From assembly GCF_000025885.1 (NCBI RefSeq), contig NC_014011.1:744001-808000 (forward strand): a stretch of 64,000 nt of DNA. Direction: 5' to 3'. The stretch is from Aminobacterium colombiense DSM 12261. GTDB lineage: Bacteria > Synergistota > Synergistia > Synergistales > Aminobacteriaceae. Within the stretch, counting starts at the first letter, position 1. Every line of letters starts with the position of its first letter. The notes beneath the pieces were generated by a model. The model made no database searches. It saw only the letters and a list, made by a program, of their open reading frames with translations, and was not told the origin of the DNA. Shown here one piece after another: positions 12,384 to 19,922 of this stretch. Both the position numbers and the translations under genes were made by a program.

Positions 12384-13193
12384 ATGCTCGATTTTTTTCG
12401 ATGGCACGATATTCTTGATATTATTATTATAACGGTGATTATCCACCGTTTGCTGCTGTTGCTGGTGGGTACAAGGGCAATGCAGCTTGTTAAAGGATTG
12501 CTTGTTCTTGGAGTAGTGGCTTCTCTCGCACGCGTTCTTGATCTTCGAACCCTTTCTTGGTTTTTGGGAAAGGTCCTCGGTGTTTTGATCATCGCTATCC
12601 CTATAGTTTTCCAACCAGAGCTTCGGCGAATGCTGGAAGAACTGGGAAGAGGAAATATCTGGAGGAGAAAAAGAGCACAAAAGAAAGCAGAAGCTCTCAG
12701 TCAGGAAATTACAAGGGCTCTTGGATATTTAAAAGGGCAGAAGATTGGAGCTCTTTTAGTATTACAGAGGGAAACAGGATTGAGAGATTTCTGGAGCACT
12801 GCGGTGAGATTAAACGCAGAAGTTTCTCAAGAACTGATCATTGCCATATTTTGGCCAGATAATCCTCTTCATGACGGAGCAGTGATCATAGATCGGGATA
12901 TGATCCTTTCTGCTGGGACCTACTTGCCTCTGACTGAAAATACAAATCTTTCAAGGTGGATTGGGACTCGCCATCGCGCAGCTCTAGGAGTAACGGAAGT
13001 ATCAGATGCTATTGCCCTTGTTGTTTCAGAAGAACGAGGAGAGATTTCCCTTGCCATTAATGGACATCTTTCAAGAAATCTGAAGGATAACCAGGTGTAT
13101 AAGCTTCTTATGCATTATTTTGGAGCGGAAGAGAATGAAAGGCGTTCTTTTCTGGACAGAATACAGGAAGAGATACGTTCTCTGTGGCAATAG
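12384..13193 (+). CDS. cdaA: Diadenylate cyclase CdaA (c-di-AMP synthase)
   Basis: 269 residues: three predicted membrane helices in the first 80 residues, then the DisA_N (DAC) domain with DGA at 164-166 (PLHDGAVII) and RHR at 196-198 (GTRHRAALG), both needed for joining two ATP into c-di-AMP. It is followed by cdaR and glmM, the arrangement known from Firmicutes, where c-di-AMP controls potassium and wall homeostasis. The start ATG has the SD GGGAGGG 7 bases upstream. Confidence 0.96.
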   Translation: MLDFFRWHDILDIIIITVIIHRLLLLLVGTRAMQLVKGLLVLGVVASLARVLDLRTLSWFLGKVLGVLIIAIPIVFQPELRRMLEELGRGNIWRRKRAQKKAEALSQEITRALGYLKGQKIGALLVLQRETGLRDFWSTAVRLNAEVSQELIIAIFWPDNPLHDGAVIIDRDMILSAGTYLPLTENTNLSRWIGTRHRAALGVTEVSDAIALVVSEERGEISLAINGHLSRNLKDNQVYKLLMHYFGAEENERRSFLDRIQEEIRSLWQ

Positions 13194-13219
13194 ACCGCGA
13201 AGAAGGGAGTTTTACTACC

Positions 13220-14446
13220 ATGTCGCCTGTAAGAAGAAAAATAGACACACTTCTTTCATCCCCTAATTTTTTAAGAATAATATCTATTGTCATTGCCGTT
13301 CTTCTCTGGTTTTATGTGTCAGGAGATCGGGCAAATGAAATAGTGAAAACATTTAAATGCCAGGTGGATTTTTTGAATGTCCCTCCTCAGACCATATTAA
13401 AGACAGAGGCGAAAACTGTAGAGATAAGTGTTTCAGGAAGTCGACGGGTATTAGACAGCCTCCAACAAGGGAGCATTATCTGTGAAGTAGACGCAAAAGG
13501 ACTTTCCCTTGGGAAGTATCGTTTGGCTGTAAGGGCCATTGTTCCAAAAGATGTCAAATTGGTAGGTATTAATCCGTCACAGATCGCAATGGAGATGGTG
13601 CGATACGTAGAACGGGTTGTTCCTGTGGAAGTAACAGTAAAAGATGGCTTGCCATCGGGGCTTTATCTTGAGTCTGTCCATGTTACCCCTAAAGATATAA
13701 CTGTAAAAGGTGTGGAGAAAGACCTGGCTCGGATCGAAAGTGTTCGCGTTTCTCCAACCTTTGACCAGCTGAAAAGCGGGGAAGAAATAACAGTTCCTGT
13801 GGAAATTATCAAGTCTCAAGGGTTTGAAGACGAAGTGACCATTGATCCCGGACAAGTAAAGCTTATGGCAGTACTAGCCCAGGGGCTTCCGAAAAAGAAA
13901 GTTCCTGTCAACGTGCAGGTAGTGGGCAAGCCGGATTCTGATTATTCTGTGAAAGCCATTGTGGTAGAGCCTTCCGAAGTGGAGGTAGAAGGTCCCTATC
14001 CTAGCTTGGGCTCTCTCTCGCGCCTTGAAACGGAAACTATCGACATTACGGGCCTTTCTCAAGAACAAAGCATGGTTGTCCCATTGAAACCTTTAGAAGA
14101 CTCGTCATTAAAATATACGGGAGCTTCTTCAGTGCGTGTTAATATTCTTCTAAAACCCTATACTGTGTCTAAACTCCTTAACAATGTTGCTGTGGAAGTT
14201 GAAGGAAATAGCATCTATCCGGGGTGGAGTGTTGAGCCCACCACTGTTAACATAACCATAGAAGGGATTCCATCTGAAGTGGAAAAAATAAACGAAACAA
14301 ATTTCCCTATCGAGCCTTACGTTAACGTGACAAATATTGTTTCAAGAAAACTAATGGTTCCAGTACAGATAAGAAACACTTCAAAAAGTATTCACGTGGT
14401 CAAAGTTGACCCCTCTCGGGTTACAGTACGTGCTGAAGTGGAATAA
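13220..14446 (+). CDS. cdaR: YbbR-domain protein, CdaA regulator
   Basis: 408 residues from ATG 13220, preceded by GAAGGGAG. A GTG at 13184, overlapping cdaA, would add 12 residues and cannot be excluded. There is one membrane helix near residues 18-33 ending in LLWFYVSGD, typical of YbbR proteins, then an extracytoplasmic chain of about four YbbR beta-repeats (for example VPVEVTVKDGLPSG, VPVNVQVVGKPDSD). In Bacillus and Listeria the counterpart modulates CdaA from the outside face. It is translated right behind cdaA. Confidence 0.9.
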   Translation: MSPVRRKIDTLLSSPNFLRIISIVIAVLLWFYVSGDRANEIVKTFKCQVDFLNVPPQTILKTEAKTVEISVSGSRRVLDSLQQGSIICEVDAKGLSLGKYRLAVRAIVPKDVKLVGINPSQIAMEMVRYVERVVPVEVTVKDGLPSGLYLESVHVTPKDITVKGVEKDLARIESVRVSPTFDQLKSGEEITVPVEIIKSQGFEDEVTIDPGQVKLMAVLAQGLPKKKVPVNVQVVGKPDSDYSVKAIVVEPSEVEVEGPYPSLGSLSRLETETIDITGLSQEQSMVVPLKPLEDSSLKYTGASSVRVNILLKPYTVSKLLNNVAVEVEGNSIYPGWSVEPTTVNITIEGIPSEVEKINETNFPIEPYVNVTNIVSRKLMVPVQIRNTSKSIHVVKVDPSRVTVRAEVE

Positions 14447-14463: not shown

Positions 14464-15840
14464 GTGAAAGGCTTGGAGGAAAGTGAGAAGAAAGTGCGTT
14501 GTCTTTTCGGTACAGATGGTGTTAGAGATGTGGCAAACAGAGGAGTAATGACTCCAGAAATGGCGTTGCGTCTCGGGCGGTCATATGTACTGTATTTGAC
14601 GGAAAGAGGAGTTCCCCGTCCAAGGATTGTCGTGGGGAGAGATACTCGCAGATCGGGAAAAATGCTTGAAGATGCATTAGTGGCAGGCATGCTCTCGGCT
14701 GGAGCGCAGGTGTTGACTCTTGGTGTTATTCCTACGCCGGGTGTAAGTTTTGCTGTGAAGCATATAAAGGCTCAAGGCGGAGTGGTAATAAGCGCATCTC
14801 ATAACCCTGCTGAATACAATGGAATTAAATTTCTGAACAACGAAGGTCACAAGCTTAATGACGATGCAGAGGCTGCTATCGAAGACTATCTTGGCGATGA
14901 TTTAATTGATGATTGGCGCCCTACAGGGGCTTCCATCGGAGAAGTGCAGGAAAGAAAGGATATAGCTCTAGTATATGCCCAATGGCTGGCAAGTCTTATT
15001 TCGTCTTCATCCATGTCATGTGAAACTCTTGCTTTTGATTGTGCTCATGGGGCTTCTGCTCCTATTTTGCACATTATTGATGATATAGTTGGGAACCATA
15101 AATGGCAAATCTCTGGTGACGTGCCAGATGGCCTTAATATCAACGAAGGTGTAGGCGTTATGAACATGGCCTATATTGCCACCCAAGTGAAGAATAGCGG
15201 AGCCAAAGTGGGAGTTGCCTACGATGGGGACGCTGACCGCGTTCTCTTAACTGATTCTCAAGGTAGGATTCTTGACGGCGATATTATTCTATGGGTTCTT
15301 GCGCGATGGCTGGCGGGAAAAGGCAAATTAGGGAATGGTGTTGTCGCTACGGTCATGAGCAATCTCTCCCTTGAGGAACATTTAAAAAAGCATAATATCG
15401 GAGTCTTTCGCTGCCCTGTAGGTGATAGATACGTCTTAGAAATGATGAAGTATCGTGGCGCTTATCTAGGGGGGGAACAGTCCGGCCATATTATTATTCG
15501 AGAGTTCACATCTACTGGTGATGGGATTTGTACTGGTTTTGTTTTTATGAAAGCCTGCGAGGAAATGGGAGAAGATATTGACTCTCTTGTTGACCGTTTT
15601 GATAGGTACCCTCAGCTTTTGAGGAATGTGGAGGTATGTCGAAATAGTGTTATAGACCCCACATTTATAACTGACATATCCCAGGAAGCAAACCGGAAAC
15701 TTATGGGACAAGGACGAGTACTCATCCGCGCCTCAGGGACAGAACCACTTATGAGGGTTCTGGTTGAGGCAAAAGATCCTAAATTAATGGAAGACATTTC
15801 AAAAGATCTTGTTGATCAGATACAGATGAAGTGCTGTTAG
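14464..15840 (+). CDS. glmM: Phosphoglucosamine mutase
   Basis: 458 residues, converting glucosamine-6-P to glucosamine-1-P for UDP-GlcNAc. Visible motifs: LFGTDGVRDVAN, the phosphoserine loop VVISASHNPAEYNGIKF with Ser 112, the metal loop YDGDADRVLL, and the sugar-binding GGEQSGH, with RASGTEPLMRV at the C-terminal phosphate site. GTG 14464 is used with the SD GGGAGGCGGGG directly upstream. It is third in the cdaA-cdaR-glmM order; in other bacteria GlmM binds CdaA. Confidence 0.96.
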   Translation: MKGLEESEKKVRCLFGTDGVRDVANRGVMTPEMALRLGRSYVLYLTERGVPRPRIVVGRDTRRSGKMLEDALVAGMLSAGAQVLTLGVIPTPGVSFAVKHIKAQGGVVISASHNPAEYNGIKFLNNEGHKLNDDAEAAIEDYLGDDLIDDWRPTGASIGEVQERKDIALVYAQWLASLISSSSMSCETLAFDCAHGASAPILHIIDDIVGNHKWQISGDVPDGLNINEGVGVMNMAYIATQVKNSGAKVGVAYDGDADRVLLTDSQGRILDGDIILWVLARWLAGKGKLGNGVVATVMSNLSLEEHLKKHNIGVFRCPVGDRYVLEMMKYRGAYLGGEQSGHIIIREFTSTGDGICTGFVFMKACEEMGEDIDSLVDRFDRYPQLLRNVEVCRNSVIDPTFITDISQEANRKLMGQGRVLIRASGTEPLMRVLVEAKDPKLMEDISKDLVDQIQMKCC

Positions 15841-15873
15841 TTTTTTGACTTAGGTAGAAAGGGAGTGGAAAGG

Positions 15874-16758
15874 ATGCAAAAGCAGATAGTTTCTAAATGC
15901 CTTTTCCCAGTTGCAGGGTTAGGAACCCGCTTTCTTCCTGCCACGAAAGACGTTCCTAAAGAAATGCTGCCCCTCGTTAACAGGCCTATCCTTTCCTATG
16001 GGGTGGAAGAAGCAATAGATGCGGGCTGTACTGAAATGGTCATGATTTCAAGTCGATCCAAACGTTCCATCGAAGATTATTTTGATCGAACTTGGGACTT
16101 GGAAAAGACACTGGCAGAGCGAGGTAAAAAGGAACTTTTAAATCTTATTCGCCAAATTCCCCAAATGGCCCGCTTTATATTTACGCGGCAGGCCGAACCT
16201 TTGGGGCTTGGCCATGCAGTCCTCTGCGGGGAATCTCTATGCGGTGGTGACTATTTTGGCGTTATTCTTCCTGATGATGTAATGATTGCTCAGCCCTCAG
16301 TGCTGGCTCAATTAATAGAGGTACATGAAAGTTTGGGAGGTAGTGTTATTGCCTTAGAGACGGTTTCAGATGAAGACACCTCCCGGTATGGAATAGTTGA
16401 AGCTGAGAGAATTCATGCAAGGGTCTTTCAAGTTCACAATCTGGTAGAAAAACCGGTAAAGGGGTGCGCTCCCAGTAATTTGGCTATAATGGGACGATAT
16501 GTCCTCTCTCCTCGAATCTTCTCCATTCTTAAAGAGGTAAAACCAGGGGCAGGGGGAGAAATACAGCTCACCGATGGTCTTATCCAGTTAGCAAAGGAAG
16601 AGCCTTTATGGGGTGTTGTTTATAAAGGAAGGAGACTGGATTGTGGTACGCAAAAGGGATGGTTGCAGGCAAATGTTGAATTGGCCCTGAAAGATCCGTC
16701 TTTACGTGATATAGTACTGCAAGTTGTAGAAGAGTATAAAAAGGGGGAAGGTAAATAA
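15874..16758 (+). CDS. galU: UTP-glucose-1-phosphate uridylyltransferase
   Basis: 294 residues. The nucleotidyltransferase signature LFPVAGLGTRFLPATK near the N-terminus and KEMLPLVNRP directly after identify GalU. Further on, GLGHAVLC and GGEIQLTDGL are family blocks. It makes UDP-glucose from UTP and glucose-1-P for glycans. The ATG 15874 lies 8 bases after GGGAG; GTG 15865 is also in frame. Its presence between glmM and glmS is an addition to the usual cdaA-cdaR-glmM-glmS order. Confidence 0.95.
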   Translation: MQKQIVSKCLFPVAGLGTRFLPATKDVPKEMLPLVNRPILSYGVEEAIDAGCTEMVMISSRSKRSIEDYFDRTWDLEKTLAERGKKELLNLIRQIPQMARFIFTRQAEPLGLGHAVLCGESLCGGDYFGVILPDDVMIAQPSVLAQLIEVHESLGGSVIALETVSDEDTSRYGIVEAERIHARVFQVHNLVEKPVKGCAPSNLAIMGRYVLSPRIFSILKEVKPGAGGEIQLTDGLIQLAKEEPLWGVVYKGRRLDCGTQKGWLQANVELALKDPSLRDIVLQVVEEYKKGEGK

Positions 16759-16794
16759 AAATCTCCATGTGTTTTTAACCAATTGTAATATGCG

Positions 16795-16941
16795 GCTTGT
16801 CTCGTGAGCGCCAGGACTGGGATTCCAGTTGACGAGGGCGGGGGAGTATCGAAAATTCGGCGGATGCCCCTGGGGTTCAGAAGACCGAACCCAAAAATTG
16901 CTCTACAAATCCAGGAAGTGATTTCTGGGACAAAAAGAGCA
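16795..16941 (+). ncRNA. glmS ribozyme/riboswitch
   Basis: The leader of glmS contains the conserved core of the self-cleaving glmS ribozyme: GCGCC at 16808-16812 (cleavage expected between A16807 and G16808), the short P1-region hairpin ACTGG-GATT-CCAGT, GTTGACGAGG, the pseudoknot core ATCGAAAATTCGGCGGATGC, the P3 hairpin GGGTTC/GAACCC, and a P4/P4.1 arm (GCTCT/AGAGC closing CCAGG/TTTCTGG). In known examples glucosamine-6-P is the cofactor for cleavage and lowers glmS mRNA. Cleavage here would also cut any read-through transcript from galU. No strong promoter is visible in the 48 bases before the cleavage site. Confidence 0.96.
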
Positions 16942-16984
16942 ACAGGTCTTCTTTTGCCTGTTGGAAAGGCGGTGCACTGATCCT

Positions 16985-18817
16985 GTGTGCGGAATAGTTG
17001 GGTATGTAGGGTTTCGTAATGCAGCTGATATTCTTCTAGATGGTATGAAACGGTTGGAATACAGAGGATATGATTCTGCCGGTATTGCAGTGAACAACGG
17101 CAGTGAGGTTCAGATACTAAAAGAAATAGGAAAAGTTCAGCAGCTTGAGGATATTGTGTCTGCTCGTCATGTTGAAGGACACTTGGGCATTGGACATACA
17201 CGTTGGGCTACCCATGGCGGGGTTTCTGTGATTAATGCTCATCCCCACAGAGATGAGCGGGGGCAGGTTGTTCTTGTCCATAATGGAATCATAGAGAACT
17301 ACAAGGAGCTGAGAGAAGAGCTGATTGGTCAGGGAGTAGAGTTTGTTACAGAAACTGATACTGAGGTAGTGGCAAAGCTCATATCTCAAATTTACAGTGT
17401 TAAGGGCGATATGATCGCCTCTCTTGTGTCCATTTACGAAAGACTGCGAGGGTCTTTTGCCCTTGCCATTCTTTTAAAAAAAGACTCTGACACCCTGTAT
17501 TGCGTGAGAAAAGGATCTCCCCTTGTGGTGGGGAGGGGAAAGGGAGAAGCATTTTGTGCTTCCGATGTTCCGGCGTTGCTTCCTTACACTCAGGATATAT
17601 TTTATATGAATGATGGCGATATCGCTCGCCTCACTCCACAGGGTATAAACTTCTGGAGTGATAAAGGTGTTTCCCTCGAAAAAAGCTCTCAGAGAGTCGA
17701 CTGGGATCTTTCAATGGTGGATAAGGGCGGCTACCCTCACTTCATGTTGAAAGAGATCAATGAACAAGGAGCGGTTTTAAGGAACACTATGGGTGATCGT
17801 ATAAAAGGAGAGGCAGTAGATTTTTCAAAAGAACTTGGCTGGAGTCAAGAATCTTTTGCAAAGATAAAGAAGATTCATATTGTGGCGTGCGGAACATCCT
17901 ATTATGCGTCTCTTGTCGCGGAACGCCTCATGGAGGGGATGCTTCCCATAGACATAAGGGTGGAAATTGCCTCTGAATATCGTCAAAGGTCTATACACTT
18001 GGGAGAGGATGTACTAGCGATTTTTGTGTCTCAATCGGGAGAAACAGCTGATACTCTCGCCGCTGAACGATTGGCAAAGAGTAAAGGTGCCTTGTGTCTT
18101 GCTATTACAAACGGTCTAGGCTCATCTCTTGCCCGTGAAGTGGATCACGTATTGCTTTTAAAGGCCGGTCCAGAGATTGGTGTCGCCGCGACAAAGACCT
18201 TTACTGGACAGCTGGCAGTGCTTTATCTCCTTGGAATATACATGGCCAAGCTGTCGGGGGCTCTATCCTCTGAGGAAGAGGGACGGCTCGTGAAAGGTCT
18301 ATTAAAATTACCCTATCAGATAGAGGAGATACTCGAGCGGCAGGAAATGCTTAAGCCTATAGCGGAAAAGTATGCTTCATCCCGGGATTTTCTTTATCTG
18401 GGCAGAGGACGTTCTTTCCCTTTAGCTCATGAAGGAGCCCTGAAACTTAAGGAAATTTCTTATATTCATGCCGAGGCCTTCGCTGCCGGTGAATTGAAGC
18501 ATGGTCCCATTGCTATGCTTGAAAGCGATATTCCCGTAGTGATTATCGCCCCTCAGGATAGTCTTTATGAGAAACTTTTTTCTAATGTGGTGGAAGTGCG
18601 AGCCCGTAAATCTCCCGTCATTGCTATTGCTACTCAGGGTGATAGTAACATGAAAGATGTTGCCAATGACGTTTTTTATATTCCCTCAACGGACCATGAA
18701 CTATACCCTTTCCTGGCTGTTGTACCCTTGCAGATTTTTGCCTACTATATTGCTCGTGCCAGAGGCTGTGACATAGACCGGCCACGAAACTTGGCTAAAA
18801 GTGTAACGGTGGAATAA
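16985..18817 (+). CDS. glmS: Glutamine-fructose-6-phosphate aminotransferase
   Basis: 610 residues from GTG 16985. This start puts the catalytic cysteine at position 2 (CGIVGYVG), which is required once Met is removed; an in-frame start at 16961 would bury it. The SD-like AAAGGCGGT lies about 11 bases upstream. The N-terminal glutaminase domain has YRGYDSAG, GHTRWATHG and HNGIIENY. Two SIS isomerase domains follow, with CGTSYYAS, SQSGETADT and the C-terminal LAKSVTVE. It makes glucosamine-6-P, the ligand of the ribozyme in its own leader. Confidence 0.97.
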   Translation: MCGIVGYVGFRNAADILLDGMKRLEYRGYDSAGIAVNNGSEVQILKEIGKVQQLEDIVSARHVEGHLGIGHTRWATHGGVSVINAHPHRDERGQVVLVHNGIIENYKELREELIGQGVEFVTETDTEVVAKLISQIYSVKGDMIASLVSIYERLRGSFALAILLKKDSDTLYCVRKGSPLVVGRGKGEAFCASDVPALLPYTQDIFYMNDGDIARLTPQGINFWSDKGVSLEKSSQRVDWDLSMVDKGGYPHFMLKEINEQGAVLRNTMGDRIKGEAVDFSKELGWSQESFAKIKKIHIVACGTSYYASLVAERLMEGMLPIDIRVEIASEYRQRSIHLGEDVLAIFVSQSGETADTLAAERLAKSKGALCLAITNGLGSSLAREVDHVLLLKAGPEIGVAATKTFTGQLAVLYLLGIYMAKLSGALSSEEEGRLVKGLLKLPYQIEEILERQEMLKPIAEKYASSRDFLYLGRGRSFPLAHEGALKLKEISYIHAEAFAAGELKHGPIAMLESDIPVVIIAPQDSLYEKLFSNVVEVRARKSPVIAIATQGDSNMKDVANDVFYIPSTDHELYPFLAVVPLQIFAYYIARARGCDIDRPRNLAKSVTVE

Positions 18818-18821
18818 GTTG

Positions 18822-18859
18822 AAAAGGAGCCTGTGTTTCTTTCACAAGCTCCTTTTTTT
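18822..18859 (+). terminator. Terminator after glmS
   Basis: AAAAGGAGC-CTGTG pairs with CACAAGCTCCTTTT around a short loop, followed by a run of T. It lies between the glmS stop and the stop of the converging minus-strand gene and could serve both directions, though the reverse T run is shorter. Confidence 0.88.
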
Positions 18860-19922
18860 ACTTGTTTAGTTCTTTTGTAAAGGGGTAATAGAGGCGGATA
18901 TGGGTAATATTAATCAATGCCTCATCGTTTCTTCCCGTACGTTCTGGCAAAAACTGCCAGCCCCCCCCATTAATTCTGCACATAATAAGGGGACGTCGAC
19001 CGTAAGTAGACCACATATTCCATAATACATCGGAAAGCTGGCTTCCAGGTACCATCCCCCCTGAAAAAAGAGGGCCTTCCCCTACGAGTGTATCTCCATT
19101 CTCTGAAGCGATGATCATCCATTGGGTTAATTTCCAGGCCGAAGACATTTCTTTAGAGTCCGCATGGAAAAGGGGCAGAATCTGAAAACCGCCGATCTCC
19201 CCATAGGGAGAGGTGCTAACATCAATAACTCCCGTATGATTTGCCCTTATGCGGCTTCCTTTCTGGAAAAAAGTTCCTTCGAAGCGCCCTACACCGTAAA
19301 CTGGTCGAATAACCCTGGCAATAATATGTGCGCCCATGGTGTCCCATGCTATAATTCGCCCTCCAGGGCGATTCTCTATATCTATTAAGAAGGTGAGATC
19401 CTTTTCTTCCACTGGGATGACCAGCGTGTCGCCATGTCCAGGTAATTTATCAGAAGAAAGCCGTTCCTGGCTTCCCTCTGGTCTTAGGATATAGACAGGG
19501 GTTCCCACTGTGGGCGCCCATCCTCCGAAAATGCCTTTGCCGCCATCAGACTTAATAGAAAAAAAGGTTTGTTTTCCTGCTGCTGGAGCTATTGTCGTTT
19601 CTGGTAGAATACTGATGGTACGTCCTTTCCCCTCCTCAACAGAACAAAGTAAATGTATGGCATTTACAGCAGAAGCACATACGGTTCCCTCTTCTCCCCA
19701 TTGACTGGCCGTATAGCTTGGCCATCGGCTTGCCTGAGGTAGAGAGACCACTATGCCAACATCTTTGCGGGAGTTGTCAGGCAGCAAAACATAGGCGGAA
19801 GAGTCTATTTCACATGGGATGTAGATGGTGAATATAGGGGAAGCCACAGCAGGAAGTGACTGAAAGGCAAGCAAAGCGGATAATATCAGGAACAGATGCG
19901 CAGCACGTTTATGAATATACAT
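18858..19922 (-). CDS. Exported protein of unknown function
   Basis: 354 residues from the ATG at 19920-19922, which follows AGAAGGGA on the minus strand. The N-terminus is a clear signal peptide: MYIHKRAAH, a leucine-rich core and AVAS before the mature part. The frame stays open further upstream, but that part is antisense to ade and lacks a signal peptide. The mature protein is predicted rich in beta strand with no membrane anchor or motif I recognise. Only two cysteine pairs are scattered through it. It is transcribed divergently from ade. I do not recognise the family. Confidence 0.75.
   Translation of the reverse strand: MYIHKRAAHLFLILSALLAFQSLPAVASPIFTIYIPCEIDSSAYVLLPDNSRKDVGIVVSLPQASRWPSYTASQWGEEGTVCASAVNAIHLLCSVEEGKGRTISILPETTIAPAAGKQTFFSIKSDGGKGIFGGWAPTVGTPVYILRPEGSQERLSSDKLPGHGDTLVIPVEEKDLTFLIDIENRPGGRIIAWDTMGAHIIARVIRPVYGVGRFEGTFFQKGSRIRANHTGVIDVSTSPYGEIGGFQILPLFHADSKEMSSAWKLTQWMIIASENGDTLVGEGPLFSGGMVPGSQLSDVLWNMWSTYGRRPLIMCRINGGGWQFLPERTGRNDEALINITHIRLYYPFTKELNK

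Follow-up and report, generated by a model that had tools for sequence, protein, structure and literature searches.

A glmS ribozyme between galU and glmS in the cdaA-cdaR-glmM gene cluster of Aminobacterium colombiense, and its distribution in the Synergistota

The window analysed here, a stretch of 64,000 nucleotides from Aminobacterium colombiense DSM 12261 (contig NC_014011.1, positions 744,001 to 808,000 of the forward strand), contains, as the 5' leader of glmS, an element that is very probably a conventional glmS ribozyme-riboswitch giving feedback on glmS (Table 1). An earlier note on this DNA had proposed a complete glmS ribozyme at this location, and a covariance search (cmscan, Rfam) bears this out, with a full-length match to RF00234 at 16796-16953 on the forward strand (model positions 1-167) that scored 97.9 bits (E value 1.3e-21) against a gathering score of 37 bits, and with the core intact. 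The match is the sole one to RF00234 in the 1,980,592-bp single-contig A. colombiense genome. Cleavage is expected between A16807 and G16808, precisely where the note had placed it, the A|G dinucleotide lying 5' of the double pseudoknot core and G1 lying 177 nt from the GTG start of glmS. Two details require amendment. The leader given previously, 16795-16941, does hold the ribozyme core, but ends too early, since the 3' arm of P3.1 (16945-16951) is cut off and the 3' end lies at about 16952; and the distance from the galU stop codon, which ends at 16758, to the cleavage site is 49 bases as opposed to 48.

Table 1. Features of the cdaA to glmS region of the window (positions are those of the window).
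Feature	Position	Strand	Basis or remarks
cdaA, diadenylate cyclase	12384..13193	+	TIGR00159, 231.6 bits
cdaR (YbbR repeats)	13184..14446	+	PF07949, 97.9 bits
glmM	14464..15840	+	TIGR01455, 459.8 bits
galU	15865..16758	+	TIGR01099, 339.6 bits
Candidate internal promoter inside 3' end of galU	16687..16715	+	CTGAAA-17 nt-TATAGT, TGn before the -10
Spacer from galU stop to cleavage site, 49 nt	16759..16807	+	Unstructured; no terminator; no promoter above chance
glmS ribozyme RNA	16808..16952	+	G1 = 16808, 3' end = P3.1; RF00234
P2.2 pseudoknot, adjoining the cleavage site	16809-16812 and 16814 with 16858-16862	+	A16813 bulged; 5/5 pairs invariant, 47/47
P1 hairpin	16815..16830	+	96% of cells paired; both-side changes at 5/6 pairs
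P2.1	C16833-G16851, G16834-C16850, A16835-U16849	+	3/3 pairs in 47/47
P2 helix	16840-16844 with 16867-16871	+	94.5% of cells paired; 5/5 pairs covary
P3	16873-16878/16887-16892	+	Window sequence, pair counts
P3.1 pseudoknot	16880-16886 (GAAGACC) with 16945-16951 (GGTCTTC)	+	Window sequence, alignment-free search in relatives, pair counts
P4 and P4.1 with GUGA tetraloop	16898..16942	+	85% and 95% of cells paired; 14/14 pairs covary
glmS, GTG start, 610 aa	16985..18817	+	TIGR01135, 790.8 bits
Intrinsic terminator 3' of glmS	18824..18855	+	-18.5 kcal/mol, z -5.25; U-run after stem

The helices were placed on the window by hand and their pairs counted in 47 aligned Synergistota ribozymes. None of the 47 has a disrupted catalytic core; 34 columns are invariant, the whole of P2.1 and P2.2 among them, and the eight core pseudoknot pairs are formed in every one of these relatives. 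Compensatory changes were found at 35 of 46 pairs, compared with 28.5 in shuffles, and cells with changes on both sides and pairing kept (P1, P2, P3.1, P4 and P4.1) numbered 377, whereas shuffles gave 126.5 and slid controls 100-186. Covariation was seen in every peripheral helix, P3.1 among them, whose pairing is kept in relatives with other sequences, and the window has both the P3/P3.1 pseudoknot and P4 with its GNRA loop (GUGA). That the element might be a degenerate or inactive relic is therefore extremely improbable, and this reading was rejected, because all core positions are intact and the helices covary; members of the genus also keep the ribozyme, and no point in support of a relic was found.

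The organism ferments amino acids, not carbohydrates (PMC3035294). Within the window, the CdaA, GlmM, GalU and GlmS proteins scored above the NCBIfam cut-offs, and CdaR was recognised by its YbbR repeats via Pfam. From dnaE through galU the genes share one orientation and are separated by small gaps, and cdaA, cdaR, glmM and glmS are found together on one strand, with galU inserted before the ribozyme; profile matches and gene order thus agree with the ribozyme being part of a cdaA-cdaR-glmM-galU-glmS run, as had been claimed. The start of glmS was set at GTG 16985, from which the protein begins M-C-G-I-V-G with the Cys nucleophile second, as opposed to TTG 16961 of the mechanical open reading frame, and a Shine-Dalgarno-like element, AGGCGGTG, is present at 16967-16974. 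Since a strong terminator, its stem scored within the folded stretch 18818-18862, ends the unit after glmS, the cut would separate only glmS from the rest of the cluster, in keeping with the note's suggestion that cleavage lowers only glmS.

Glucosamine-6-phosphate (GlcN6P) is the cleavage cofactor of the glmS ribozyme family. In A. colombiense this product of GlmS would bind a pre-folded pocket and act as cofactor for cleavage at 16807/16808, leaving a downstream piece with a 5'-OH that comprises only glmS and would then be degraded by RNase J. Read-through from cdaA-cdaR-glmM-galU would supply the RNA, as probably would a promoter within galU, with the same cut acting on either transcript, and the outcome would be a private negative feedback on glmS inside a cell-wall precursor operon. 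In B. subtilis, RNase J1 degrades the cleaved glmS mRNA, the 5'-OH product (PMC3997798), and mutation of the glmS ribozyme increases glmS mRNA more than 50-fold (PMC6171935). On the strength of this effect, and of what is known of the family, ordinary negative feedback on glmS would be expected for any transcript that reaches the ribozyme. RNase J is encoded in the A. colombiense genome (TIGR00649, 575.6 bits), and was matched in all 116 good-quality Synergistota genomes, so its presence is non-discriminating.

As to the spread of the class, on which the note expected a ribozyme at this locus to bear, the element is widespread in the Synergistota as opposed to an isolated case. It was found in 63 of 188 genomes, representing 26 of 63 genera, and nearly always with glmS in a cdaA-cdaR-glmM-galU operon; indeed, the order cdaA-cdaR-glmM-galU-ribozyme-glmS recurs across the phylum. 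Directly 5' of the ribozyme is galU, or sometimes glmM (family f6), in 38 of the 40 loci that were fetched, the other two (G011 and G015) being from family f3, in which the ribozyme and glmS have moved together and lie behind a transporter gene, separated from it by about 240 nt. The cda genes were adjacent to glmS in none of 20 fetched ribozyme-less loci. Similarly, glmS has cdaA no more than about 6 kb away in 53 ribozyme genomes, the two being unlinked in six (f3), with four left outside the count owing to contig ends or a missing match, compared with linkage in none of the 70 ribozyme-less genomes with both genes listed, these counts being of coordinates compared by eye, non-independent and with few evolutionary events behind them.

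In a tree of GlmS proteins, the ribozyme-bearing Synergistales form one well-supported Synergistota group. Genera g7, g10 and g11 have ribozyme-less GlmS proteins that are placed inside the Bacillota, which suggests replacement of glmS in these genera by a gene that was acquired through transfer and lies elsewhere, and a second ribozyme-less group (n=15) is of the Synergistota type. Ribozyme-less genomes with Bacillota-nested GlmS are G038, G046, G085 and G090 (loci L153 and L160-L162). The tree does not support a recent acquisition of the ribozyme from Bacillota, since the ribozyme-bearing GlmS proteins of the Synergistales group with Synergistota and it is the ribozyme-less ones of g7, g10 and g11 that nest in Bacillota; the ribozyme was apparently inherited vertically in the phylum. 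One ribozyme genome, G005, falls outside the Synergistales, on a long branch and with a contig that begins at the ribozyme. The deep-branching G002 (L163) has galU directly 5' of glmS with a gap of 6 nt, and has neither a ribozyme nor glmM or cdaA nearby. The phylum hence offers a natural set, in which the ribozyme is kept, moved with its gene, or lost when glmS was moved or replaced, for asking why it is used in place of the other controls found in other bacteria, and the ribozyme can be regarded as a phylum-wide regulator whose presence goes with a location of glmS downstream of cdaA-glmM.

The spacing between galU and the ribozyme in relatives bears on how the ribozyme is transcribed. In about half of the relatives with galU in this position the spacer is no longer than 35 nt (1-31 nt), or galU and the ribozyme overlap, which speaks for read-through. 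The spacer is 17 nt in genus g2, 5 nt in G023 and 1 nt in G103 (L119), the cut falls within the TAG stop codon of galU in G179 (L145), and the galU stop codon is located inside P1 in G021 and G022 (L127, L178). Layouts with an overlap or with 17 nt at most cannot accommodate a promoter in the spacer, so that the ribozyme must be either cotranscribed with galU or supplied from a promoter within it. A cut in G021, G022 or G179 would deprive the galU message of its stop codon, hence galU would not always be left intact in the way that the note expects. Four genomes (G115-G118; L134, L135, L182, L183) have an intrinsic terminator, GGGGAGGATTG...CAATCCTCCCC followed by a T-run, between glmM and the ribozyme, together with a promoter-like TGATAATAT in the same interval. 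In these genomes glmS looks uncoupled from the operon, and the predicted terminator and promoter-like TGATAATAT show that cotranscription is presumably not kept throughout the phylum.

For A. colombiense, the note had reported no clear promoter ahead of the ribozyme. This is true of the spacer 16759-16807, in which no promoter scored above chance (best score p 0.82) and no terminator was found, but it does not hold just upstream, where a candidate is present in galU. This element, at 16687-16715, has the best promoter score within 16641-16807 (p 0.02 versus shuffles), and no other stretch of galU shows as much synonymous conservation relative to A. sp. MB27-C1 (12/13 synonymous codons, permutation p 0.0175), both p values being post hoc given that the element was selected after seeing the data. 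Both of its hexamers are identical in MB27-C1 (G031, L111), and synonymous identity to that strain over the last 110 nt of galU is 17/21, compared with 91/218 for the whole gene (Fisher p 1.5e-4, likewise post hoc). The third Aminobacterium genome, G030, lacks the promoter-like element, as do other families, and among the other pairs tested no similar peak of synonymous conservation was found, apart from a weak one in a different part of galU (L136/L137). A promoter inside galU at this position is likely on these sequence data, and the conserved element therefore renders the absence of a promoter doubtful.

Read-through from cdaA-cdaR-glmM-galU into the ribozyme appears plausible too, because the spacer is free of terminators and relatives have short spacers or overlaps. 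There is thus roughly an even chance that glmS draws on two predicted transcript sources, read-through and the galU-internal promoter, both of which would be cut by the ribozyme. It could be instead that glmS is expressed solely as the final member of the cdaA operon, with no promoter of its own and with the ribozyme as sole separator from glmM and galU. The tight run of genes from dnaE to galU, the 49-nt spacer with neither promoter nor terminator, and the spacers of 1, 5, 12, 16 or 17 nt, or overlaps, in relatives are consistent with such an arrangement, but the promoter-like element, where synonymous sites are conserved in the closest species, argues against it, and it is considered somewhat unlikely. 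That same element would be explained if glmS were expressed mainly from the galU-internal promoter, with linkage to the operon incidental and the ribozyme acting on a short monocistronic glmS mRNA, and both the family f3 loci, with ribozyme and glmS outside the operon behind a transporter gene, and the terminator ahead of the ribozyme in G115-G118 point in this direction. However, retention of linkage in the 53 ribozyme genomes as opposed to none of the 70 ribozyme-less ones suggests that linkage matters, and the element is missing in G030; expression chiefly from within galU is accordingly judged improbable.

Returning to the dual supply of transcripts, a broader and rather speculative proposal is that the Synergistota ribozyme serves as an operon splitter, retained as glmS is cotranscribed with cdaA-cdaR-glmM-galU, and with the galU promoter of Aminobacterium as a backup. 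Under this proposal, which we regard as unlikely as a whole, GlcN6P would in G021, G022 and G179 also convert galU to a non-stop message, lowering UDP-glucose synthesis along with GlmS. The overlaps with the galU stop codon allow a simple test of whether one cut silences both neighbours.

A strong Shine-Dalgarno-like sequence, AAGGAGGTG, is located upstream of the ribozyme and far from gene starts in several relatives (L117, L129-L133, L122, L123), at 27-32 nt (f6, G037) or 55-57 nt (f3) from the cleavage site. This motif could belong to a leader open reading frame, or could be an mRNA-stabilising Shine-Dalgarno sequence that is removed by cleavage. The latter idea (STAB-SD) was rejected for the window, from which the element is absent, strong as it is in some relatives. 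A spacer hairpin that might protect the galU 3' terminus was also rejected for the window (-1.8 kcal/mol, z +1.6); G030 has one.

McCown and co-workers reportedly extended the glmS ribozyme class beyond the Firmicutes, for example to Deinococcus-Thermus, and Deinobacterium, in the control set, also matches RF00234. No link between the glmS ribozyme and the Synergistetes was found in the literature searched. As far as that literature goes, the phylum-wide survey, the insertion of galU, the overlaps with its stop codon in relatives and the candidate galU promoter are new. Already known from B. subtilis and S. aureus are the class of ribozyme, its location downstream of cdaA-cdaR-glmM and the occurrence of insertions between glmM and glmS (PMC6171935, PMC8537086), and so far as A. 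colombiense is concerned the finding is an ordinary one. The core shares with that of Thermoanaerobacter tengcongensis (PMC7125110) the P2.1/P2.2 double pseudoknot, the C2-G56 pair, the bulged A6 and the A-1|G1 cleavage site, whereas P1 and the loops differ in length. In Staphylococcus aureus (PMC8537086) the glmS ribozyme likewise lies downstream of cdaA-cdaR-glmM with genes inserted between glmM and glmS, although the insert there consists of mannitol (mtl) genes and fmtB as opposed to galU. B. subtilis has a cdaA-cdaR-glmM-glmS operon with a glmS ribozyme (PMC6171935), and has in common with A. colombiense the RNA family, the core, the downstream gene, the upstream cdaA-cdaR-glmM genes and RNase J; A. 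colombiense differs in having galU between glmM and the ribozyme, a short P1 and a candidate galU promoter, and in belonging to another phylum.
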